From contig JAUZRG010000019.1 in assembly GCA_030950585.1 (NCBI GenBank), forward strand, positions 1-42,251: 42,251 nucleotides of DNA, in the 5' to 3' direction. The notes beneath the pieces are model-generated. The model had not been told where the DNA came from. It searched no databases and saw only the letters and a program-made list of their open reading frames with translations. The DNA comes from Mariprofundaceae bacterium (lineage in GTDB: Bacteria > Pseudomonadota > Zetaproteobacteria > Mariprofundales > Mariprofundaceae). A program made the position numbers and the translations under genes. Below are positions 8,450 to 38,675 of this stretch, piece after piece. Position 1 is the first letter of the stretch; the number at the start of each line of letters is the position of its first letter.

Positions 8450-9397
8450 TCACTGATAATAATAGTCATATTTTTTCAATATATCTTGTGTGAAATGCCA
8501 TGCGTCCTGATGAGACACTTGAGCATCTTGGGCGAAGATGATTTTGACATATAATTGATCTGCATACTTGTTTTTTAAAGTAGTTAAAGCTTTTTCTAAT
8601 GCGGCTTGAGAGATTGGTGTTTCGTGGCTAAGCTCAGGATGGTTGTAAGATAGAGATTGTTTATGATGTTGTTTCTGATAATAAACTTGGACAACATATT
8701 TATCCGCACTACTGCGCGCAGGACGAATCAGGCGTTGGTATTGCTGCGCCAATAAGCTGTAGTTGTCTTTTAGTTGTGATAAATGCATGCCATCTTTGGC
8801 AGCTTGCAGGAGCCATTGTTGTTCTTTTCCACTGTATTGAATGCCTAGTTGGGTGTATTGACTATAGAGCTGAGTGTGCTTGTTGATGAGCTGACTATAT
8901 TGATCTTGTACTTGATGAAACTGTGCTGCAAAAAAGGCAACGTGAGTGTATTTATCTTGTAACTGGTGATGACTTTGGTAAAGCATGCTGTATTGCTCTT
9001 GCGCTTGTTGCCACTGGCTTTGTGTTTGTCCTAATAGGGTTTGTAAGGAAGCTAACTGTTGTTGTTTAACTTTTAGATGTTGCCCTTGTTCAGCATGAAA
9101 TTGTTGTAATTGGCTATATTGATCTAACCAGTGCTGCTGTTGGATTTGCATGGCGTTCAGGTTTTTTTGTAATTGTTGTTTTTCTTGTTGGGTGAGTTGT
9201 TGTTGTGTGAGGGCTTGTGATTGAACTTGCAGGGATTGTTTGAGTTGCTCGATTAAATCGACATTCCTCATCAGTAGCACCAACATAGCCAATAAAAAAA
9301 TCATCATAATGACAGTCATAATATCCGTAAAGGATGGCCAGAAGCTTTCATCATGATGGCTTGTTTCAGCGGATAAGTCAGGAAACCCCTGATTCAT
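8450..9397 (-). CDS. MotB/ExbD-like membrane protein with long coiled coil
   Basis: The N-terminus reads FWPSFTDIMTVIMMIFLLAM: a short cytoplasmic tail, then one membrane helix with an Asp at its start. This is the proton-binding arrangement of MotB/ExbD/TolR stator subunits. Residues about 50-240 are extremely Gln-rich heptad-like coiled coil. The last 75 residues are folded-looking but lack the usual OmpA peptidoglycan-binding motif. The start ATG overlaps the TGA of the MotA-like gene (ATGA), so the two are translationally coupled. An ion-driven stator-like complex in the inner membrane is inferred. The energised process is unknown, and no flagellar gene is nearby. Confidence 0.8.
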   Translation of the reverse strand: MNQGFPDLSAETSHHDESFWPSFTDIMTVIMMIFLLAMLVLLMRNVDLIEQLKQSLQVQSQALTQQQLTQQEKQQLQKNLNAMQIQQQHWLDQYSQLQQFHAEQGQHLKVKQQQLASLQTLLGQTQSQWQQAQEQYSMLYQSHHQLQDKYTHVAFFAAQFHQVQDQYSQLINKHTQLYSQYTQLGIQYSGKEQQWLLQAAKDGMHLSQLKDNYSLLAQQYQRLIRPARSSADKYVVQVYYQKQHHKQSLSYNHPELSHETPISQAALEKALTTLKNKYADQLYVKIIFAQDAQVSHQDAWHFTQDILKKYDYYYQ

Positions 9398-10443
9398 AAG
9401 GGTGTGTCCGTTAAACGAAAGCCTTGTTGTAAGAGTGATTGTATCTGCTGTAAATTTTGGCTATTTTGTTGCTGAGTATTGCTTTGCAGGATGGTCATTT
9501 GTTCCAAAACTTGATGTAAGTCAGCAAAGCCAATATCCTCATTGTGTTGATGTAGTTTAAGTGCATCAGCAATGGCTTGGCTGTGTTGAGCCAAGGCATT
9601 CATTTGTACCTCCCATTGTTGCATGTGCTCTTGAGATTGGCTGAGTTGTGTTTGTAGCTCGCTACGTGCTTGGTGTTGTTCAGCCACACTGTCTTTGAGG
9701 CTTTGAATGAGCTCAACCAAATGATGATTGACTTGGCTATGATCCGTTTGAAAGACAGGAATGAGATAAAGGCTGGTGATGTTTTCTAGCTGCGCAAAGA
9801 TATGGCTTTGGGCATGTTGAAGCGCATTGAAAAAATAATTAAAAAAAACATAGCATAAAATAGCGGTGATGGTGGTGGATAAAGCGGTGGACATACCATG
9901 AATTACCATACCCATGCCCTCCTCATTGACGCTTGATTGCAATAAACCAGCTGAACCTGTGAGTGCCATTGATAATGAAACCACAGTACCAAAGACACCG
10001 AGCAAAATAAGGGTGTTATTGATAAAACGTGGCACATAAGTTTTGGCCTTTTCTATGGCACTTAAGCTGGCAGCCAGTGCCGCTTGATTAATGCTGCTTT
10101 TTTGTTGATATAAAGATTGCATGATGAGATAACGCTGTGAGATAAAGCTATTGGGTGGCACAGATTCTAAGGGGTCACGTTGGTCGCTATGGGTTTGAAA
10201 AAGGCTTAAAGCCTTTTCTTCATGCATATAACGTGTGAGTAGATAAGCAATATGCAATAAACCAATCACAAAAACCACAACAATTACACTATTGATGATG
10301 ATCCCGATAGGGGTGGCCTGAAACTGCACATAGGTTTGTAAAAACCATGTTTGTACCGCAAAAGCTAAGGTCAAGAGGACAAGAATAGCGATGAGCATTT
10401 GAATCAAAATATTAAAGCTATATCGGTGCGCTGGCATGTGCAT
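9394..10443 (-). CDS. MotA/TolQ/ExbB-type proton-channel protein
   Basis: Hydrophobic segments lie near residues 10-30 and 43-65. The MotA/ExbB core follows, with two long membrane helices near 140-160 and 185-210 and the small-residue-rich stretch TLILLGVFGTVVSLSMALTG between them. After residue 230 the protein becomes a Gln-rich helical cytoplasmic tail. Family members assemble as pentamers around a MotB/ExbD dimer and convert ion flow to rotation. The next gene overlaps by 4 bp and supplies that partner. ZorA of the Zorya phage-defence system has the same fold plus a long tail. Here there is no ZorC, ZorD or ZorE next door, so Zorya is not supported. A perfect 12-bp palindrome (CCTTAGCTAAGG, 10453-10464) lies just upstream of the start. 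Confidence 0.82.
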   Translation of the reverse strand: MHMPAHRYSFNILIQMLIAILVLLTLAFAVQTWFLQTYVQFQATPIGIIINSVIVVVFVIGLLHIAYLLTRYMHEEKALSLFQTHSDQRDPLESVPPNSFISQRYLIMQSLYQQKSSINQAALAASLSAIEKAKTYVPRFINNTLILLGVFGTVVSLSMALTGSAGLLQSSVNEEGMGMVIHGMSTALSTTITAILCYVFFNYFFNALQHAQSHIFAQLENITSLYLIPVFQTDHSQVNHHLVELIQSLKDSVAEQHQARSELQTQLSQSQEHMQQWEVQMNALAQHSQAIADALKLHQHNEDIGFADLHQVLEQMTILQSNTQQQNSQNLQQIQSLLQQGFRLTDTPL

Positions 10444-21308: not shown

Positions 21309-23486
21309 ATGACGAATTATCAAAATGATCAGCCCATTACAGGCATGAGTAATGAGCCTGACCGATTAAACCGTGAAAGCTTTGCTCAACGTGTCGCTGA
21401 TATTCTCATGCTTGAGCCAGATGATGAATGTTTGACCATTTCTCTTGAGGCAGAGTGGGGGTATGGTAAAACATCCGTGATCAACCTTGTGGAGAAGTCC
21501 GCTTCAAACCGTGGAAACAAACCCATTATTGTTGAATACAACCCTTGGTTGGCGGGAAAAGCAGATGCTTTGATTCAAGATTTCTTGATTCAGTTTTCAT
21601 CCCAGCTGGATGTGGCCAAGAATCCCAAAGAAGGCCTGCGAGCAGCCAAGGAAATATTGGCATATTCACAATTGTTTAATGCCATGAAGTTCATGCCAAA
21701 TGTCGAACCTTGGGCCTCAACATTGAATAGCCTTTCAGGTGTGATTGGTGATGCCTCTAAAAAAATGGCTAAACTCAAAGATGTCGATGTTTTTCATCGT
21801 AAGAGCAATGTTAGAAGCGCATTAAATGACTTGGATCAGCCTATCATTGTTATTATTGATGATATTGATCGTTTGACACCCGATGAAGCTTTCCAAGTGA
21901 TTCGCTTGGTGAAAGTTGTGGCTGATTTTCCCGGTGTTTCTTTTCTATTGTCTTTTGACCCTGAGTATTTAGCAGGAGCTTTGGCGAATTATGGTATTAA
22001 AAAGGCAGAGCAGTATATTGATAAGGTTGTTCAATTGCGGATTCCATTGCCTGTGATTGCACCCAAAGACATGCAAAAACTCGCGAATATTGAATTGGCT
22101 AGCTTATCTGAAGACTCGTTGACTGATTTCTTTGCTGAAGATCAAAAGCGTTTAAGTTATGTTTATCATAAGCACCTGAAGTATTTGGTGCGCAGTCCGC
22201 GTGAGCTAAAGCGTATTTTTAATCATTTACGCTTTGTTTTATCTCGCATTGAAGGTGAAGTTTGCTTTACTGATTTATATTGTTTGGCGGTATTGGCAAT
22301 CAAAGCACAAGGTATTTATAAATCATTGAAAGAAGCCCCTGAAATGTATGTGGGGCGGAAATTTGATGAAAAAATGGTCTTTGAAAAAAGAGAAGAAGTG
22401 ATTAAACGCTATCGTGACACACGTGAAGCCATGCTTGAGAAGGTTGATAGAAGAAACCAAGAGCATGTGCGTTGCATTGTGTATGATTTATTTCCTCTGG
22501 TGGATAGTCAATTTTCGGCGGTTTATAGTGAAGACTATGATCGTTGCGGGCGTGTGGCATGTGAAAAACGTTTGTATACGGCATTGCATTATCAGGTGCC
22601 ATTGGGTTTTGCTTCAGATGTTGATATTATTTCTTTTATTAATGGTGAAACAGACCGAGAAGATTATTTACAAAGAGCCATTGACGAAGACTTTGTGGAG
22701 CGATTGCTGGAGCTTCTTCAGCAAAATTTGAATAAAATAAAAGCTTCGCATGTGATTAGTCTTTTAAATGCTGTGTATGAAGTATTCTTAGATTCTGAAT
22801 ACCTTGAATCCTTCGTTGGGGCTGTACAAGGACCCTTTGACTTTGATCCATTTAGGCAAATTGTGTGGCTAAGTGTGGGTTTAGTCGCCAAGCAAGATTA
22901 TAAAAAAGATGTCCTTTTTAAGCTGATTGAAAATCCAAAAAGCCTTGCTGTGAGTGCTGAACTCATTAAAATGCTGATGATTCAAAATGACGCTATTGCC
23001 ACAGATGACCCCAGTTTGAAAAAAGAAGTTTGGTTGTATGGCAAGGATTACAGTGACTTGGTTGATCAGTGGTGTACGTTGATGGTCAAGCATTTGCAAC
23101 ATCATGATTTAATTCATTTTTATGATGTTGCTGCGATCTATACAGTGTTGGTACAAGCAAGCCCTAAACGGGTTAAAAAATTATTTAATAGCTGGAGCAC
23201 AAGCCCAGAAGGTTTAAGCTGTATCGCAACATTGATTGCGCATAGTGGCGATGACAAAGAAGGGGCATATGCTCATATTCAAGCGGACGAGCTATCCGCC
23301 TTGATGACGTTCTCCCGTTTAAAATCATTTGCCGACAGCCAGTTAAGCCAAGAAGATGATCTCTCTCCGATGCTCAAAGCCGTTTATCTCAGTATAAGCA
23401 CAGGAAAAGCCTATTATCTTAGTGATGCTCGCTTGGTGATGCAGCAGACTATTGAGTCGGTGATCGAGCCGATGATTGAAGTTTAA
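21309..23486 (+). CDS. KAP family P-loop NTPase, 725 aa
   Basis: Sequence: Walker A EWGYGKTS near residue 48, an YNPWL motif near 77 typical of KAP NTPases, and Walker B IIVIIDDIDRL near 178. SFLLSFDPEYLAGAL follows near 215, and RSPRELKRIFN near 300 is sensor-like. The last 350 residues are helical and unrecognised. No clear membrane insertion is visible, so it looks soluble. Family knowledge: KAP NTPases are patchily distributed, often on mobile elements, and several act in phage defence. Context: it starts 36 bp after pfp with its own ACGAGG ribosome site and opens the accessory island; a DUF3024 gene follows on the same strand. Confidence 0.88.
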   Translation: MTNYQNDQPITGMSNEPDRLNRESFAQRVADILMLEPDDECLTISLEAEWGYGKTSVINLVEKSASNRGNKPIIVEYNPWLAGKADALIQDFLIQFSSQLDVAKNPKEGLRAAKEILAYSQLFNAMKFMPNVEPWASTLNSLSGVIGDASKKMAKLKDVDVFHRKSNVRSALNDLDQPIIVIIDDIDRLTPDEAFQVIRLVKVVADFPGVSFLLSFDPEYLAGALANYGIKKAEQYIDKVVQLRIPLPVIAPKDMQKLANIELASLSEDSLTDFFAEDQKRLSYVYHKHLKYLVRSPRELKRIFNHLRFVLSRIEGEVCFTDLYCLAVLAIKAQGIYKSLKEAPEMYVGRKFDEKMVFEKREEVIKRYRDTREAMLEKVDRRNQEHVRCIVYDLFPLVDSQFSAVYSEDYDRCGRVACEKRLYTALHYQVPLGFASDVDIISFINGETDREDYLQRAIDEDFVERLLELLQQNLNKIKASHVISLLNAVYEVFLDSEYLESFVGAVQGPFDFDPFRQIVWLSVGLVAKQDYKKDVLFKLIENPKSLAVSAELIKMLMIQNDAIATDDPSLKKEVWLYGKDYSDLVDQWCTLMVKHLQHHDLIHFYDVAAIYTVLVQASPKRVKKLFNSWSTSPEGLSCIATLIAHSGDDKEGAYAHIQADELSALMTFSRLKSFADSQLSQEDDLSPMLKAVYLSISTGKAYYLSDARLVMQQTIESVIEPMIEV

Positions 23487-23557
23487 GTGATAAAACAAGA
23501 TCAAAAAACACATAAAAATGATGACGGCGTGGGTTTCACGCATATGAAAGGAATAGT

Positions 23558-23905
23558 ATGGCATTTAGTGAATTTGAAATAAAACGATACGAAAAGATGA
23601 CAAGACTTTTTGTTGAGACACGCCGTCCACCTGTCGAGATAAGGGACAAAGTGGACATCAGTTTTCGCTTAAAAAATCAAAGTATATCTATATTTGAAAT
23701 GATCTTTGAAGACTTTAAGACAAAGAAAGGAATCGAAGTCCCCATAGCAAAAGCAACTTTTGTGAAGTCTCAACAATGCTGGAAGTTGTACTGGGTACGC
23801 GCAGACCTGAAGTGGTATGCTTATTCACCGATGCCAAAAGTGAAGACCTTAGAAGCGTTTTTGGCACTTGTGGATACGGATGAGCATAGTATTTTTTGGG
23901 TTTGA
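23558..23905 (+). CDS. DUF3024 domain protein, 115 aa
   Basis: Begins MAFSEFEIKR and has the alternating acidic and aromatic strands and closing WKLYWVRADLKW stretch of the DUF3024 family, which has no known function. AAAGGA precedes the ATG. It follows the KAP gene by 70 bp on the same strand, so the two may share a transcript. The protein is small and soluble and may be an accessory factor. Confidence 0.75.
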   Translation: MAFSEFEIKRYEKMTRLFVETRRPPVEIRDKVDISFRLKNQSISIFEMIFEDFKTKKGIEVPIAKATFVKSQQCWKLYWVRADLKWYAYSPMPKVKTLEAFLALVDTDEHSIFWV

Positions 23906-24286
23906 ACCTTGATGAAGGTGAGCTGACTGCTTGTTTCAAGGGTCAATACACCTTCAATCTTCATTACTGGTTAATGAAAAGACCTGTAAAAATTTCTGAA
24001 CTGAGGGTTACACCCACACTGATACCGTGATGATACTTTTGGGTTAATCAGAAAAATTCCAATGTTTATTGGTATAAAGCCATAATACTTAAATGGTTTT
24101 TTCTCCTAACCTTTTGAAAAACAAAGAGTTTTTTAAATAAGTAAAATGATGTTTGGCATGCGGAATGTCGGTTAAAAGTATTTTATATTTCATATTTAGC
24201 TCCTGCGGCATGATATGTTTTGTGATTAATACTGTAAAAAATGAATGACTTACCATTACCCCCATATGAAGGCCTTATCCCAGTTT
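23906..24286. other. AT-rich intergenic stretch between convergent accessory genes
   Basis: This 380-bp stretch separates the plus-strand DUF3024 gene from the minus-strand nuclease gene. I see no strong terminator, no repeat and no known RNA. Its only candidate is a 34-codon minus-strand frame listed separately. It looks like eroded accessory DNA. Confidence 0.5.
24089..24193 (-). CDS. Possible small ORF, 34 aa
   Basis: A 34-codon minus-strand frame whose ATG is preceded by GCAGGAG with a 6-base spacer, an unusually good ribosome site. The product starts MKYKILLTDIPHAK, is basic and ends LGEKTI. It could be a real micro-protein or the intact 5' end of a decayed gene. It lies downstream of the nuclease gene on the same strand. 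Confidence 0.35.
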   Translation of the reverse strand: MKYKILLTDIPHAKHHFTYLKNSLFFKRLGEKTI

Positions 24287-25150
24287 TTAGAGGTTTTTTG
24301 TGATGTATCTTTGATTCAACCATTCTTTCCATTCTTCAAATTTCGATGAGCCTTTAATTGAGGAAATGAACTTTTCAAATGTGCATCCGATAACATTTGG
24401 CTTTGCCTCATCTGTCAGTTTAGAAATATACTCAGGAATGACATGGTGAAAATGGTTGTTTCCATTTGGGAACAGAGTGATGGAGTAAAACTCATCAACA
24501 ACCTTTTCTTGGATCATTTTCAATCCGAGCAGGTGATTTCTCCAAACCTGACGAAATTCATCCGTTCCGAAAATTTCATCATCTGGATTTTTGAAAACCC
24601 CAGATTCTCTTGCTGTTTCCCAGTACAAAGAATTGTGGTTTTTAACATTGATCGATTCTTTTTTCCCAATGGGGTAGGACTGTTCTGTATATTTTACTTC
24701 GATGCCAATGCCGCATGATCTTCCATTTTTAAGAATGACTTTGATATAGGTGTCAAAGGCTGTCCCATCATTCAAATATTTTTCTTTTGGTGCATATTCT
24801 ATTTCAATTAACTTGATTTCAGCGCAATCAATTTTCCAAACATCGGAAATAATCTTGGTCGCTACTTCACGGTTGGTATTTAAAGGCGCTAATAAATTAA
24901 AGGGTATGTGTTCGCTTCTTAATAAATCTGCATCACGTGTTCTTGAATATTTGGGATAGCGTTGCCTAAGAGATTCTCTTGAGTTGAGTTTGTCATAATA
25001 ATTCAACATCGCTTCTGCATCAGGATCGGTTAAACGATTTCCATAATCTTGAAAATCAACTTCCAAAACTTCAGCTCGATATTTTGACTGAAAGAGTCTG
25101 GCTTGTGCTTTGAATTCACCGTCTGGTTTATATTGTGTGCCGATATTCAT
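24287..25150 (-). CDS. PGN_0703-like putative PD-(D/E)XK restriction endonuclease
   Basis: A 287-aa protein. Residues about 60-75 carry the EHIPFNLLAPL motif typical of PGN_0703-family proteins. FDTYIKV near 140 and GIGIEVKYTEQSYP near 155 supply the D...ExK triad of a PD-(D/E)XK nuclease fold. The start is the ATG at 25150, with GGAG 8 bases upstream; the frame is open to a TTG at 25165, which has no such site. No methyltransferase gene is adjacent, so a classical restriction pair is not supported. The gene is AT-rich compared with the housekeeping genes, consistent with transfer. Its target is unknown. Confidence 0.75.
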   Translation of the reverse strand: MNIGTQYKPDGEFKAQARLFQSKYRAEVLEVDFQDYGNRLTDPDAEAMLNYYDKLNSRESLRQRYPKYSRTRDADLLRSEHIPFNLLAPLNTNREVATKIISDVWKIDCAEIKLIEIEYAPKEKYLNDGTAFDTYIKVILKNGRSCGIGIEVKYTEQSYPIGKKESINVKNHNSLYWETARESGVFKNPDDEIFGTDEFRQVWRNHLLGLKMIQEKVVDEFYSITLFPNGNNHFHHVIPEYISKLTDEAKPNVIGCTFEKFISSIKGSSKFEEWKEWLNQRYITKNL

Positions 25151-25286
25151 TTTTTCTATCTCCAACTAATTATTATACGGAACAATCCCCTAATTAACAG
25201 AGTTGTAACTTGCTAAAGTTGAGTGAGTTTATGCGTTTGTGTCAAGCTCAATAGGGATAAGTTTGCACTCCGAAAGGCTGCAGCAT

Positions 25287-26297
25287 TCAAAGCGGCCAAA
25301 TCGAAACCTTATTATGCTCATTACATCGCGCCCAAACCATACGCTCATCGGAACTAAACCCAAATTGATCAATTTTACCATTGTGCTCAAACTGCGCATG
25401 GGTCTGACCACCGCTCAGATCGTGCAAGCTAAGCATATTCGGCTTACTCAGTAACAAAACAAGAGAGCTGTTAGCGCAGAACGTCGGTGCCGAAGGGCAT
25501 AAAGACTCCTGAGGGTCATGAGGCAGTACACAACGTTTTTCACCAGAATCACGCTCCCAAATGGTCGCCTCAGCATCATAAGAGCTACAGGTAGCAACCC
25601 ACTTGCTATCAGGGCTAAACACCGCTTGGTTGATTTTGTCCAAGCCTTGGTATTTAAATGCGCCAACTCGCTCACCACTATGGGTAGACCACATAACGGC
25701 TTCATCACCGCAATTGGCCAGCATATGTTGCCAATCCCGACTAACAGAGGCCTGCCACAGTTGTTTAGTGTGCGTAATACAATAGAGGGGCTTGCCACTG
25801 AGCGCGTCCCACATGCAGGCCTCTTTATTGCCGTTTATGGTAAAAACCTGCTTTTCATCAGGGCTGAAAACAGCAACTTCTAAGCCTCCAAACGTTTCAG
25901 GTTTAAAGGTTTGCAGTTTACTTTCGTCCTTTGTTGACCATATGACAGCGCTACCATCACCAGAGGCGGTAAGTACCCGTTTACCGTCTTGGCTAAACGC
26001 GGCAGAATTCACTGCCCCCAAACGACCGAAGTGCCTGAAATAACATTGTGAATCGAAGGTTTCAAAATCGCTCAGTAAGGCCGTGCGATAAGCAACAGAC
26101 CATAGAAGAATATTCTTACCATCTGGACTGAAGCGTGCGTGGTGAAAGTGGTCGCTTGTTGCATGGCGTTTTTGTTCTTTGCCAGTATTGCAGTCCCAGA
26201 GCACCGTTGCACCGTCGAAGGAGGAGGTGACAAGTGTTTGGCTGTCGGGGGTGAAGGTAACCAAGCTGATGCTGTTGTTGTGCTCAATAGTAATCAT
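25287..26297 (-). CDS. WD40-repeat protein, 336 aa
   Basis: Six to seven beta-propeller repeats are visible as recurring units of the type ARFSPDGKNILLWS, AAFSQDGKRVLTASGDG, AVFSPDEKQVFTING and AVFSPDSKWVATCSS, each ending in a W-containing strand (VLWDC, VIWST, CMWDA, VMWST, TIWER). The repeats fill the whole length. There is no signal peptide and no fused effector domain, unlike the large WD40-NTPase or WD40-kinase proteins. A protein-protein scaffold in the cytoplasm is inferred. It sits between the PGN_0703-like nuclease and the Septu-like pair, transcribed with the former and away from the latter. Confidence 0.85.
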   Translation of the reverse strand: MITIEHNNSISLVTFTPDSQTLVTSSFDGATVLWDCNTGKEQKRHATSDHFHHARFSPDGKNILLWSVAYRTALLSDFETFDSQCYFRHFGRLGAVNSAAFSQDGKRVLTASGDGSAVIWSTKDESKLQTFKPETFGGLEVAVFSPDEKQVFTINGNKEACMWDALSGKPLYCITHTKQLWQASVSRDWQHMLANCGDEAVMWSTHSGERVGAFKYQGLDKINQAVFSPDSKWVATCSSYDAEATIWERDSGEKRCVLPHDPQESLCPSAPTFCANSSLVLLLSKPNMLSLHDLSGGQTHAQFEHNGKIDQFGFSSDERMVWARCNEHNKVSIWPL

Positions 26298-26419
26298 AGT
26301 AGAAAATCCATTATTAAACCCTGATTTTATGCAGTTTGATTATAACCGTCGATATGATACTTGATTTCTTTTTATTTTTTGACCCTTTTTTTGTGCAGAC
26401 GAGGGTGTTGGCCGTGTAG

Positions 26420-26445
26420 GCCGTAAGAGCGAAGCGTCATACGGC
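26420..26445 (+). repeat. REP-like palindrome A1
   Basis: Stem GCCGTA / TACGGC closes on the 14-base core AGAGCGAAGCGTCA. The reverse complement of the same core recurs at 26523-26536 with a different, but self-complementary, stem. Conserved core plus compensating stems is the signature of REP/RAYT-type palindromes. Confidence 0.7.
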
Positions 26446-26516
26446 ACACAAAGTGAGAAAGGTGTAAACAAAAAGTGATTAAGATGATGGTTGTGGATTG
26501 GATTGGCGGGGTTAGT

Positions 26517-26542
26517 GGTGGATGACGCTTCGCTCTTCCACC
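26517..26542 (-). repeat. REP-like palindrome A2 (inverted relative to A1)
   Basis: Stem GGTGGA / TCCACC around TGACGCTTCGCTCT, the exact reverse complement of the A1 core. The two copies are about 70 bp apart, making an inverted pair like a BIME. Confidence 0.7.
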
Positions 26543-26625
26543 TTACATATGCGACTTATGTGTTAATCTCCGCCGCCGTCACGGGTAAAATAGATGTTAG
26601 ACATCAGGCTGGTGGATGAAGCAGT

Positions 26626-26733
26626 ATGGTGTTGTTGAAAAAAGGTATGATCATTGCGATGGTTGATGCCCGCATGCTTAATCGAAGTTTGAATATCTTA
26701 AATCGTAAAGGTGAATCACGCTCATGGAAGTAA
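26626..26733 (+). CDS. Possible 35-aa leader ORF overlapping the PtuA-like gene
   Basis: An ATG-started frame (opening MVLLKKGMIIAMVDAR, basic end) closes 10 bases inside the PtuA-like gene, so that the start of that gene (ATGGAAGTAA) contains this stop. Its ribosome site is weak. It could be a translational leader, the last part of a lost upstream gene, or chance. Confidence 0.25.
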   Translation: MVLLKKGMIIAMVDARMLNRSLNILNRKGESRSWK

Positions 26734-28079
26734 AAAAGTTTCGTTTATCGAACGTTGGACGGTTTTCAGATCTTGAAATCCCGCTTGCACCCACGAAAGA
26801 CAAGACATCCAACATGACTGTTTTGGTCGGCAATAATGGTTCGGGGAAAACAACCTTGCTCCATGCTCTAGCAACATCGTTAAGCTGGTTTGTCGGCAGA
26901 GTCCGCTATGAGAAAGGTAGTGGAAGCCCTATTTCTGAAGATGTGATTAACAACCAAGCATCAACGGCAGTGATCGATATTGACGTATGGGATAAACGGG
27001 CACGTTTAGACGACTCCTTGTTTTCTTGGCATATCGCCAAGACGATAAAAGGCCATCAAAGCGAGGGTCGTAGTGCGTTAAGCGAGCTATCCGAGTTAGC
27101 AAATCACTACAAAGCTCAGATGTCGGCCAATGATGCGTCGTCCTTGCCTTTGCTGGCTTTTTACCCTGTGGAACGAAGCGTGATCGACATTCCGTTGAAG
27201 ATAAATAACCGCCATTCTTTTCAACAGATTGATGGTTATGATGACTCTCTGAATCGTGGTGTTGATTTTCGCCGTTTCTTTGAATGGTTTCGAGAACGAG
27301 AAGATACGGAAAACGAACAAGGTATTTCAAATGAAGTATTTGACATATTCAAAGAAAGGCTAGGAAATAATAATAAGGATATTTGGGAAATACTATCCAA
27401 GGTAAAAGATTCGTCCCTCGACCGCCAGTTAACCGCCGTCCGAACAGCCATTAGCACCTTTATGCCGGGATTTAACAACTTGCGTATTCGCAGGAAACCG
27501 CGTTTGCACATGTCCATTGATAAGCAGGGTGAAAGACTCAATGTGGCGCAGCTCTCACAGGGTGAAAAGTCATTGCTTGCACTTGTCGGTGATATTGCCA
27601 AACGCTTGGCGATGATGAATCCAGCCCTCGAAAACCCATTGCACGGCGATGGTATTGTGATGATTGATGAAGTGGATTTGCACTTACACCCCCAATGGCA
27701 GCGCACCTTGCTGGCGCGACTGAGCAACACCTTTCCTAACTGCCAGTTTGTGCTAACAACACACTCTCCGCTGGTCATTAGCGAGGCAAAAGATGTGCTG
27801 TGTTATGTGCTTAACGATGGTGAACTTTCAGTCATGGATGACACCTTTGGTTTGGATGCCAATCAGGTCTTGTCACAGGTGATGAATACGGATGTGCGCA
27901 ACACTGAAATCCAAACCCAATTGGATGATCTCATGGACGCGATGCAAGACAGAAACCTTCAGCATGCGAGAGAACTACTGTCACAGCTTAGGGAGTCTTT
28001 GCCTTCAGGCAATATCGAAATAACAAAAGCAGAGTTGCTGCTAAGACGCTTGGAGTTGCGCCTTGAGAAAAATCAGTAA
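26724..28079 (+). CDS. ABC-type ATPase, Septu PtuA-like
   Basis: Sequence: a soluble 451-aa ABC/SMC-class ATPase. Walker A VGNNGSGKTT lies near residue 35, the signature LSQGEKSLLAL near 275, Walker B GIVMIDEVDLHLHP near 309 and the H-loop LTTHSPLV near 342. An insertion of about 170 residues between Walker A and signature and a helical C-terminus complete it. Family knowledge: this layout occurs in AAA_15/AAA_21 ATPases such as PtuA, OLD and the retron-associated ATPases. Context: the next gene overlaps it by 17 bp and encodes an HNH protein of the PtuB/TIGR02646 type, the two-gene composition of the Septu phage-defence system. No reverse transcriptase gene is adjacent, so it is not a retron. 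The start has AAAGG about 12 bases upstream, slightly far. Confidence 0.85.
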   Translation: MEVKKFRLSNVGRFSDLEIPLAPTKDKTSNMTVLVGNNGSGKTTLLHALATSLSWFVGRVRYEKGSGSPISEDVINNQASTAVIDIDVWDKRARLDDSLFSWHIAKTIKGHQSEGRSALSELSELANHYKAQMSANDASSLPLLAFYPVERSVIDIPLKINNRHSFQQIDGYDDSLNRGVDFRRFFEWFREREDTENEQGISNEVFDIFKERLGNNNKDIWEILSKVKDSSLDRQLTAVRTAISTFMPGFNNLRIRRKPRLHMSIDKQGERLNVAQLSQGEKSLLALVGDIAKRLAMMNPALENPLHGDGIVMIDEVDLHLHPQWQRTLLARLSNTFPNCQFVLTTHSPLVISEAKDVLCYVLNDGELSVMDDTFGLDANQVLSQVMNTDVRNTEIQTQLDDLMDAMQDRNLQHARELLSQLRESLPSGNIEITKAELLLRRLELRLEKNQ

Positions 28080-28707
28080 AGGCTCTGAGCCAAAGCTCCT
28101 GACTGCTTGGAAAAAGGCAAACCCAACAGGAACCTATCAAGAGCTTTCTCACCAAGTCAGAAAACACGTGAGGCAAGTGAACATCGACGAACAATTTGGT
28201 CTCTGTGCCTATTGCTGCCAGCGCATTGATGCTTCTAATAGTATGAATGAGCACGTTGAAGCAAAAGCCATTGCACCCAATCGAGGCTTGGACTTTTCCA
28301 ATATCGTCGCTTCTTGTACCACACCCAATCAATGTGATAGGGCGCATCAATCCAAACCGCTTCCACTCACACCATTGATGGATGCATGTGAAACAGAACT
28401 CAAATTTTACCTTGCGGGTCGCGTCAAAGGTCTATCACCTCGTGCTTCAACATCCATCGACGTGCTGAACCTCAATAGTAAAAGACTTATAAACTGTAGG
28501 GAGCAAGCCGTGGATGCGTTGCTATACGGTGGTGGTTCAAATCCAGAAGAGATTGAGCTACTTGAAGATGAGCTGATTGAGATTTTATTAGAAGACTTCA
28601 AAGAGGTAGGCAAAGATCATCTTTTGGCTCCATATAGCCCAGTGTTGGTGAGTATTTTAGGTGGTATTAGAAAAAAATTAACTCCCGATAAAAAGCTACA
28701 GGAGTGA
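28063..28707 (+). CDS. HNH endonuclease, Septu PtuB-like
   Basis: A 214-aa protein with the retron/Septu-type HNH arrangement (TIGR02646-like). CAYCCQRI near residue 47 forms a zinc knuckle, NEHVEAKA near 61 holds the catalytic His, DFSNIVASC near 77 carries the Asn, and a further Cys in NQCDRAHQ follows. It begins at a TTG with GGAG 7 bases upstream and starts 17 bp before the stop of the PtuA-like gene, so translation is coupled. In Septu the ATPase and nuclease form one complex that cuts DNA during infection. The C-terminal half is acidic and helical. No homology search was possible, so the subtype is inferred. Confidence 0.83.
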   Translation: MRKISKGSEPKLLTAWKKANPTGTYQELSHQVRKHVRQVNIDEQFGLCAYCCQRIDASNSMNEHVEAKAIAPNRGLDFSNIVASCTTPNQCDRAHQSKPLPLTPLMDACETELKFYLAGRVKGLSPRASTSIDVLNLNSKRLINCREQAVDALLYGGGSNPEEIELLEDELIEILLEDFKEVGKDHLLAPYSPVLVSILGGIRKKLTPDKKLQE

Positions 28708-37760: not shown

Positions 37761-38675
37761 TTAGTAAATCATGATTTCAACACGACGGTTCTTGGGCTCA
37801 TTGATGTCATTTTTTGTTGAAACTGCTAATTGGTTTTCACCATAAAACTTTAAATGAATGCGGTGTATTTTAATGCCTGTATCGTGTAAGAAAGTAGCTA
37901 TATGCTGTGCGCGTTTCTTAGATAGTGTTAGGTTAAATTGTTGAGAAGCCATGGTGTCAGCGTGGCCATCGACATGAATCACAGCAGGGATACGTGCATT
38001 AAGTGCTGGAATCAGGGTTGGTAATGTTTGTTTGGATGCTGGTGTAAGCTCGGTACTTCCTGTTGTAAATAAAAATGTAAAATGTGCTGGCTTTAAAGGT
38101 TGAGAATTAATAATTTGTTCAAATTTTTTGTCAATATATATTTTATCACCTTTTGCCATGTCGGTTAAGGTGTCTTCTTCTCGAATCACAGATGAGAAAT
38201 GATAAGCTTTGTTGATGAGTAGTTCTTTGTTTTTGGTTTTTACAATAATAGCTCCAACTTTACCATCTTCATCAGGCAGTAAGATAACGGTTGTTCTCGG
38301 TACGGAACAATTGTGCACGGCTTTTTCTTTGGCTTGTTGTGCATAGGCTTCGGCTTCGCGAAATAGGGCATCGGTTTCTGCAGCCTCGGCACCATTTTCA
38401 TCCAGCTCATGGGCTGCCCAGTATAAAAGAGAAACAGCAGAGGCCAAGGTTTGGGGTGCGCAATCTTCAGCATCGGCATTTTTGGCATCTTGAATCATCT
38501 TCTTAATTTCGGTGAGTTGTGGGTAATTGGTATGAACAGGAACGGTGGTGCAAGATGGTAACAATATAACGAAAACAATCCAAAATATAAGAGCTATTGT
38601 AAACCTAGTGGTTGTTATAGCCTCAACTGTATACCTAAGTCGTCGATAGCGACTTAGGTGTTTTAAGCTATGCAT
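37761..38675 (-). CDS. OmpA-family outer-membrane lipoprotein
   Basis: An N-terminal signal segment ends with a lipobox (VILLPSC, Cys near 42), so the protein is lipidated. An about 90-residue helical domain rich in Ala follows (QDAKNADAEDC to AKEKAVHNC). The C-terminal OmpA-type peptidoglycan-binding domain (about 190-304) has FLFTTGSTELTP, VDGHADTMASQQFNLTLSKKRA and NRRVEIMIY. GGGGAG precedes the ATG by 9 bases. Its n-region before the hydrophobic segment is unusually long (about 25 residues) and overlaps an RNA hairpin. Confidence 0.88.
   Translation of the reverse strand: MHSLKHLSRYRRLRYTVEAITTTRFTIALIFWIVFVILLPSCTTVPVHTNYPQLTEIKKMIQDAKNADAEDCAPQTLASAVSLLYWAAHELDENGAEAAETDALFREAEAYAQQAKEKAVHNCSVPRTTVILLPDEDGKVGAIIVKTKNKELLINKAYHFSSVIREEDTLTDMAKGDKIYIDKKFEQIINSQPLKPAHFTFLFTTGSTELTPASKQTLPTLIPALNARIPAVIHVDGHADTMASQQFNLTLSKKRAQHIATFLHDTGIKIHRIHLKFYGENQLAVSTKNDINEPKNRRVEIMIY
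38633..38659 (-). promoter_or_regulatory. Perfect 10-bp hairpin inside the 5' end of the OmpA-like gene
   Basis: On the coding strand ACCTAAGTCG, a 7-base loop, then CGACTTAGGT, all within codons 6-15. An exact stem this soon after a start codon can affect translation or transcription. No T-run follows. Confidence 0.5.

Follow-up and report, generated by a model that had tools for sequence, protein, structure and literature searches.

What might a MotA/MotB-like gene pair do for a bacterium when no known motor system is encoded close to it? The question is raised by two genes on the reverse strand of a 42,251-nucleotide stretch of DNA (positions 1 to 42,251 of contig JAUZRG010000019.1, hereafter the window) from the 2.5 Mb genome of a Mariprofundaceae bacterium (assembly GCA_030950585.1). 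We consider it probable that the products of these genes, A and B, form a stand-alone 5:2 ion-driven inner-membrane motor in which B unites a helix like that of ZorB and MotB with its own rod and a head of TolR/ExbD type. The two genes are as follows:

9394 to 10443, minus strand: gene A, 349 amino acids, a four-helix MotA/TolQ/ExbB-like channel subunit

8450 to 9397, minus strand: gene B, 315 amino acids, the one-helix partner

Both open reading frames lie where the first-pass annotation had placed them, and the plus strand reads tcat at 9394-9397 (ATGA on the coding strand), which is the A/B overlap that it had described. A scored above the Pfam cut-off for MotA_ExbB (PF01618; 24.8 vs 22.9 bits). 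The match of B to MotB_plug, by which a MotB or PomB would be recognized, fell below the Pfam threshold (16.2 vs 24 bits), and ExbD/TolR (PF02472) was absent among its Pfam matches at E ≤ 1, short of the cut-off for that family. Pfam found neither a vWA nor an OmpA match in B, in agreement at the sequence level with the earlier statement that B has no OmpA domain.

Three parts of subunit A carry its side of the argument:

10357 to 10422, minus strand: helix 1 of A, residues 8-29 in the AlphaFold2 (AF2) model and about 12-30 by hydropathy, extra relative to ExbB/TolQ

9829 to 10026, minus strand: pore helices 3 and 4 of A, about residues 140-205, with invariant Thr153, Thr190 and Thr191

9412 to 9423, minus strand: GFRL motif of A, residues 341-344, forming the tip of the helical cytoplasmic tail, which is otherwise variable

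Hydropathy places the next two membrane helices of A at about residues 48-66 and 145-163, with the fourth lying within an AF2 helix of residues 174-231 and a small region between helices 2 and 3; the mean predicted local distance difference test score (pLDDT) of the model is 87. Gly149, Gly152, Thr153, Thr190 and Thr191 are each found in 74/74 rows of the alignment of relatives, and the three threonines would line the pore within the last two helices, judging from their counterparts in known members. Structure comparison ranked ExbB/TolQ first (Z 11.8-13.8), followed by ZorA (10.9-11.4) and MotA (9.8 and below), with the ExbB/TolQ alignments beginning at residue 29-44 of A. Foldseek assigned a probability near 1 to many ExbB, TolQ and ZorA chains with a best E of 0.002, and it returned no match at E ≤ 0.001 for A or for the head of B. 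By profile comparison, A came closest to its counterpart in a second two-gene family of these genomes (93% probability), with TolQ next (53%) and ExbB, MotA and ZorA at 0.3-3.7%; a profile search of PDB sequences with A gave chance or coiled-coil matches only. The second motor-like pair occurs in Mariprofundales (L294-L300, e.g. L295:508-2328), with a MotA_ExbB subunit at 33.3 bits and a partner with one helix, a coil and a DATGSMHG motif that we read as vWA-like, for which Pfam finds no vWA model.

Subunit B can be divided into a membrane helix, a rod and a head:

9269 to 9343, minus strand: FWPSFTD motif and single membrane helix of B, residues 19-43, with a hydropathy peak at 25-43

9323 to 9325, minus strand: Asp25 of B, the presumed ion-binding residue, from conservation

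8732 to 9265, minus strand: coiled-coil rod of B, about residues 45-222, with no proline and with heptad periodicity

8453 to 8722, minus strand: C-terminal head of B, residues 226-315, with a TolR/ExbD-like fold in the AF2 model and in structure comparison

8456 to 8470, minus strand: YDYYY end motif of B, residues 310-314, from conservation

Asp25 is an aspartate in 74/75 rows, the remaining row being truncated (a gap) at that position. We read the pair as a motor because the pore threonines of A and the membrane aspartate of B are invariant and because the pair and its order are conserved. These residues also bear on whether A and B could instead be a static envelope brace or a gated ion leak, in which the head would be held at a fixed distance and no useful torque would be produced. 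The absence of an identified moving partner would suit such a brace, as would a rod whose length varies within limits (153-230 residues), but the invariant Asp and Thr, which appear to occupy the driving positions of known members, would then be needless, and we give the brace little credence.

The rod is the most distinctive part of B. Across 73 rows, the linker between helix and head is 153-230 residues long (median 188; 181 in the window protein) and contains proline in 0/73 rows, and its periodicity peaks at 2.34 residues, the 7/3 heptad harmonic, at 0.53 vs 0.23 for shuffled sequences (one shuffle per sequence). Its profile matches the coils of crescentin, SMC, myosin and tropomyosin. The first-pass annotation had described a Gln-rich coiled coil; the coil proved to be a trait of the whole family, whereas the Gln-richness is local to this genome, with 29% Gln in the window protein, the highest of the 73 rows, against a median of 12%. 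A coiled coil rises 0.148 nm per residue, and the 181 residues of the window protein would thus form a rod of about 27 nm if they make one continuous coil. This predicted length exceeds the distance to peptidoglycan, given as ~9 nm in a TolR study (PMC4646322).

The AF2 model of the head, built from 60 rows, has a mean pLDDT of 84 and the order helix-strand-strand-strand-helix-strand-helix, which includes the beta-beta-beta-alpha-beta-alpha core of TolR and ExbD. Among 993 solved chains pre-picked by Foldseek, VIA-align placed TolR 5BY4 (Z 7.9) and ExbD 8VGD (6.7), 8P9R (6.6) and 8VGC (6.2) as the top four entries, with the next match, an unrelated one, at Z 5.6. TolR 5BY4 also had the highest Foldseek probability (0.82) and query template modeling score (0.49) among the 50 matches listed. 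In the model the coil stands where TolR has its swapped first strand, and the head corresponds to the core without the swapped N- and C-terminal strands. At the end of the protein, Y310, D311, Y312 and Y313 are each conserved in 74/75 rows, the remaining row being a gap, and position 314 is Y in 42 rows and otherwise F, H, S or A.

Several observations weigh against the reading that we favor. TolR 5BY4 reached only rank 29 by Foldseek E-value (0.58) in a search whose E-values were poor throughout, a head Z below 8 can reflect merely a common arrangement, and the head is without the last ExbD/TolR strand, the aligned parts ending at TolR residue 135 and ExbD residues 129-130. Profile comparison of the head stayed within the decoy range: by score, ExbD ranked 3 and TolR 37 of 58, a joint ExbD+TolR profile ranked 5, and a small periplasmic-only profile, which kept 4/28 sequences because of a narrow pattern, ranked 48 (the ExbD set was drawn from 23/30 loci). 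An hmmsearch of PDB with the head profile found no ExbD or TolR, its matches being of the chance or coiled-coil kind. For A, 9fed, a designed helical protein, scores Z 10.6, below ZorA but above MotA, so part of the Z of A reflects mere helix packing. Envelope proteins beside the pair in some relatives (Slp, PPIC-type, MlaC and HlyD) leave room for a lineage-specific partner. With moderate confidence we take the modeled head to have the TolR/ExbD fold, a claim about fold and not about family membership.

If the parts work together as they do in the known class, five A subunits would surround two B, protons (or Na+) would travel between the threonine ring formed by A and Asp25 of B, making A and B turn relative to each other. 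The B dimer would extend into a coiled-coil rod of about 180-190 residues, free of proline and tipped by the TolR/ExbD-core head, which it would bring through the peptidoglycan layer in the direction of the outer membrane. B alone would then do the work shared by TolR and TolA or by ExbD and TonB, delivering force, or providing an anchor, at the wall or outer membrane, with no separate force-transducing protein needed. On the cytoplasmic side, the variable tail of A ends in GFR[LIMV] in 74/74 rows and in 79/79 loci with A (GFRL itself, 74/74); an invariant tip on a variable tail suggests a docking site, which would probably engage a cytoplasmic anchor or regulator. As for the ligand of the head, TolR(60-133), without its swapped ends, is reported to bind peptidoglycan whereas the whole domain does not, and TolR and MotB are proposed to unfold their swapped ends to reach the wall (PMC4646322). 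Because the head resembles this trimmed TolR core, its likeliest ligand would by analogy be peptidoglycan, or an outer-membrane component close to it.

A head of this kind raises the alternative of a divergent ExbBD or TolQR that drives a TonB- or TolA-like protein encoded elsewhere, with the rod merely setting the head further out. The core fold of A is closest to ExbB/TolQ, its profile lies nearer to TolQ than to ExbB, MotA or ZorA, and the head resembles ExbD, which binds the TonB D-box peptide according to the titles of entries 8VGD and 8P9R. On the other side, TonB, TolA, TolB and Pal genes were absent among 20 other proteins of the window and 20 neighbors of relatives scanned (free TonB or TolA homologs elsewhere were not searched for), and the genome already has three further ExbB/ExbD-type pairs at other places. 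The first-pass annotation had foreseen that a hidden ExbD-like domain might place the pair in a known transport system; the fold is indeed predicted, but it does not place the pair in Ton or Tol, because of those three separate pairs and because no Ton or Tol neighbors were found in the scans. We regard a divergent ExbBD/TolQR as unlikely.

A flagellar stator variant, by comparison, would account for the MotA/MotB-class helices, but it does not agree with a B that has no OmpA domain or with the distribution of the genes. In 41 genomes searched, A/B occur without MotB_plug in the window's genome, G005 and G013, and MotB_plug occurs without A/B in others (e.g. G001, G006, G007 and G012). We rejected the stator on the lack of any MotB_plug match in the genome and consider it extremely improbable.

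The surroundings of the pair agree with a stand-alone unit. In the window, a phosphorylase gene lies upstream and an acyl-CoA dehydrogenase gene downstream, and none of 20 other open reading frames scanned matches a flagellar, Tol or Ton family (Pfam, E ≤ 1e-8), as the first-pass annotation had proposed from the sequence alone. The comparison of gene neighborhoods that it had suggested showed adjacent genes that differ between lineages and belong to unrelated families. Of 20 neighbors of relatives scanned, 18 were assigned Pfam families (Slp lipoprotein, DUF455, DUF302, HlyD, HDOD, PPIC-type, ferrochelatase, ferredoxin, EthD, cobW, GGDEF, aminotransferase, MFS, cytochrome c, response regulator, SDF, DnaB and MlaC) and two had none; several are envelope proteins, and none recurs across lineages. 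The commonest neighbor, family F5, which may be a glycerate kinase, lies upstream on the opposite strand in 19/73 rows, and the second, F3, a Slp lipoprotein, lies downstream on the same strand in 11/73; both occur in Sedimenticola/Thiodiazotropha/Chromatiales-type and symbiont contigs, and the other neighbors varied. A conserved third gene was rejected on these low counts. It is because of the changing, unrelated neighbors, the three ExbB/ExbD-type pairs elsewhere and the lack of MotB_plug in the genome that we read the motor as standing alone.

Farther along the window, an OmpA-domain protein of 304 amino acids is encoded at 37761-38675, 27 kb from the pair and with no sign of a link to it. 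Positions 21309-28707 hold a defense-like cluster with a KAP NTPase, a PD-(D/E)XK nuclease (PDDEXK_13), a WD40 protein and an AAA_21 ATPase with an overlapping downstream open reading frame. An open reading frame of 918 amino acids at 175-2931 has no Pfam match at 1e-8 and weak PADLOC matches of Cas12 type (best 22.9 bits).

The helix of B points to a different relationship from its head, and with it to a Zorya-like phage-defense sensor, in which A and B would sense envelope disturbance and the tail of A would call a cytoplasmic effector. The PADLOC Zorya models cover the first 81-126 residues of B, the best being ZorB1 (35 bits, residues 16-115), the helix region reaches the ZorB chains 8vvn, 8qyd and 8vvi in PDB by sequence, and B finds the ZorB of G054 at E 5e-4. 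The cytoplasmic tail of A is helical and its tip invariant, A matches ZorA2 weakly (26.7 bits, PADLOC), the pair is patchily distributed in the family (a strong A in 24 of 74 genomes), and one relative has an OmpA-type gene (L048:240-1130), 524 bases downstream of A/B, that matches the later part of the ZorB models at up to 68.8 bits. Set against these points are the lack of an OmpA head in B, the poor profile match of A to ZorA, and neighbors that vary and belong to unrelated families. PADLOC found no Zorya match in the seven window neighbors, in agreement with the first-pass annotation, and no ZorC, ZorD or ZorE match in these seven or in two genes of relatives, nine in all (the rest of the genome was not searched). 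There were no matches in 72,556 plasmid records, and a Zetaproteobacterial branch supported at 100/100 shows no sign of frequent shuttling. Overall, we consider the Zorya-like sensor quite unlikely. Elsewhere in the genomes, PADLOC ZorB1 scores in L251-L280 reach 270-355 bits in some and about 205-232 bits in a second group found in others.

How widely, then, is the pair distributed? A pattern scan turned up relatives of B at 276 places, of which the best 80 were kept. A adjoins B in 79/80 of these loci, and in the remaining one B begins at the contig end. Seven of the 80 contigs repeat loci already taken and were removed for the statistics on rods and residues, whereas only two were removed for the neighbor comparison. 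Picking of open reading frames missed genes lying under longer antisense frames and recovered both genes in 73 rows; a profile search of the plus strand finds both in 79/80 loci. The 4-base overlap of A and B is present in 37/73 rows, with at most five contigs counted twice; start codons were set mechanically, which makes overlaps such as -107 and -62 artifacts. The best 80 relatives include Zetaproteobacteria, Sedimenticola/Thiodiazotropha, other Chromatiales-like bacteria, Thiotrichaceae, Arenicellales, a Methylococcales bin, tube-worm and clam symbionts and two Desulfuromonadales bins, carriers whose lifestyles we assume to include iron and sulfur oxidation. A culturable carrier is Mariprofundus ferrooxydans PV-1 (locus L090). 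Judged by these sequences, A/B is a family in Zeta- and Gammaproteobacteria plus two Desulfuromonadales bins and not an isolated oddity. Of the stand-alone ion-driven motor put forward by the first-pass annotation, the motor architecture and the lack of a known motor system nearby have held.

In a set of 61 genomes, A was matched in 18 and B in 15, weak paralog matches included (one of the B matches, in G054, falls on a ZorB gene), and in 13 of the 61 the A match is strong (E below 1e-48). Of 74 Mariprofundaceae genomes, 28 match A, strongly in 24 (at least 316 bits) and at 29-42 bits in the others, and the B head is present in 24/24 family genomes with a strong A. Of 398 genomes sampled from the phylum, 28 have the B head, and each of these belongs to the window's own order. 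The linkage is occasionally broken: in G030, B lies where a short contig begins and the genome has no strong A, and A and full-length B lie on different contigs in G072, G080 and G210. In G072 and G080, other genes lie on either side of each site; in G210 this holds for A, and B lies 267 bases from a contig end. Because A and B are unlinked in these three genomes and both are retained, the two are kept together even without adjacency. In G072, a headless copy of B (245 amino acids, open frame, helix and coil kept) adjoins A (L311:5210-5947), and the full B lies elsewhere (L312:4713-5711).

When 74 A rows were placed in a tree, a branch supported at 100/100 set the 16 Zetaproteobacterial rows apart from all others, which points to mostly vertical inheritance of A with loss, as far as these sequences can tell; the two Desulfuromonadales rows sit among gammaproteobacterial rows. 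The window row is a long branch, and some joins in the tree may be false. A plasmid-borne trait was rejected, since neither A nor B was matched in the plasmid records noted above (tblastn, E ≤ 0.01).

Comparison with known systems places the pair between several of them. With TolQR and ExbBD it shares the core fold of A, a single membrane helix with Asp in B and, in the model, a TolR/ExbD-like head; it differs in the N-terminal membrane helix and cytoplasmic tail added to A, in the ~180-residue coiled coil added to B, in a head that has no last strand and no sequence-profile match, and in having no TolA or TonB gene beside it. ZorB continues into an OmpA-type domain. The likeness to ZorAB lies in the helix motif FW.SF.D.M (FWISFADLMT or FWISFSDLMT in ZorB) and in the tailed A subunit, whereas in our B the ZorB models reach no further than about residue 126 and a TolR/ExbD-like head sits on a long rod, and no Zorya effectors were seen near our pair among the neighbors scanned with PADLOC. 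MotAB and PomAB likewise have a four-helix A and a one-helix B with Asp, but our B has no OmpA domain, our A has a small cytoplasmic region, and there is no flagellar link.

Closer parallels come from motors described outside these classes. In the TPH-vWA motor pairs (Williams-Jones et al. 2025, PMC12204202), a two-gene unit is likewise formed in which the inner-helix subunit itself bears the periplasmic part, but this inner helix carries a von Willebrand A head with no TolR, where ours carries a TolR/ExbD-like head; the Mariprofundales pair that resembles them (L294-L300) is the one whose A is nearest to ours by profile. MotAB relatives have been divided into flagellar and generic ion transporters (GIT), and the generic B subunits, like ours, belong to non-flagellar pairs and have a more compact fold in place of an OmpA-type domain; the available part of that report mentions no coiled-coil rod, Mariprofundus or Zetaproteobacteria (PMC12505986). 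In GldLM, which serves type IX secretion and gliding, the inner subunit also forms a long periplasmic shaft, 18 nm in GldM (PMC9389320), but this shaft is built of four folded domains and not of a coiled coil.

No account of a family that joins a coiled-coil rod to a TolR/ExbD head was found in the open-access literature searched, although one may still be in print. That A/B constitutes a self-contained family of trans-envelope motors, with axle, periplasm-spanning drive shaft and TolR/ExbD-type end-effector in one protein, is a proposal that we make tentatively, at somewhat less than an even chance; neither TonB nor TolA would then be needed for torque or pull from the inner membrane to reach the wall or outer membrane. 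The pair adds a variant to the 5:2 motors and is not a new kind of machine, and it would stand beside the vWA motors of PMC12204202 as a further family among the motors without a known task. It bears on the question of how 5:2 motors pass motion to the wall and outer membrane. Force transmission by TonB and TolA is still debated. As a two-gene system with a minimal TolR-like head and a built-in shaft whose length can be read off, A/B would make the transmission of rotation across the periplasm directly testable.

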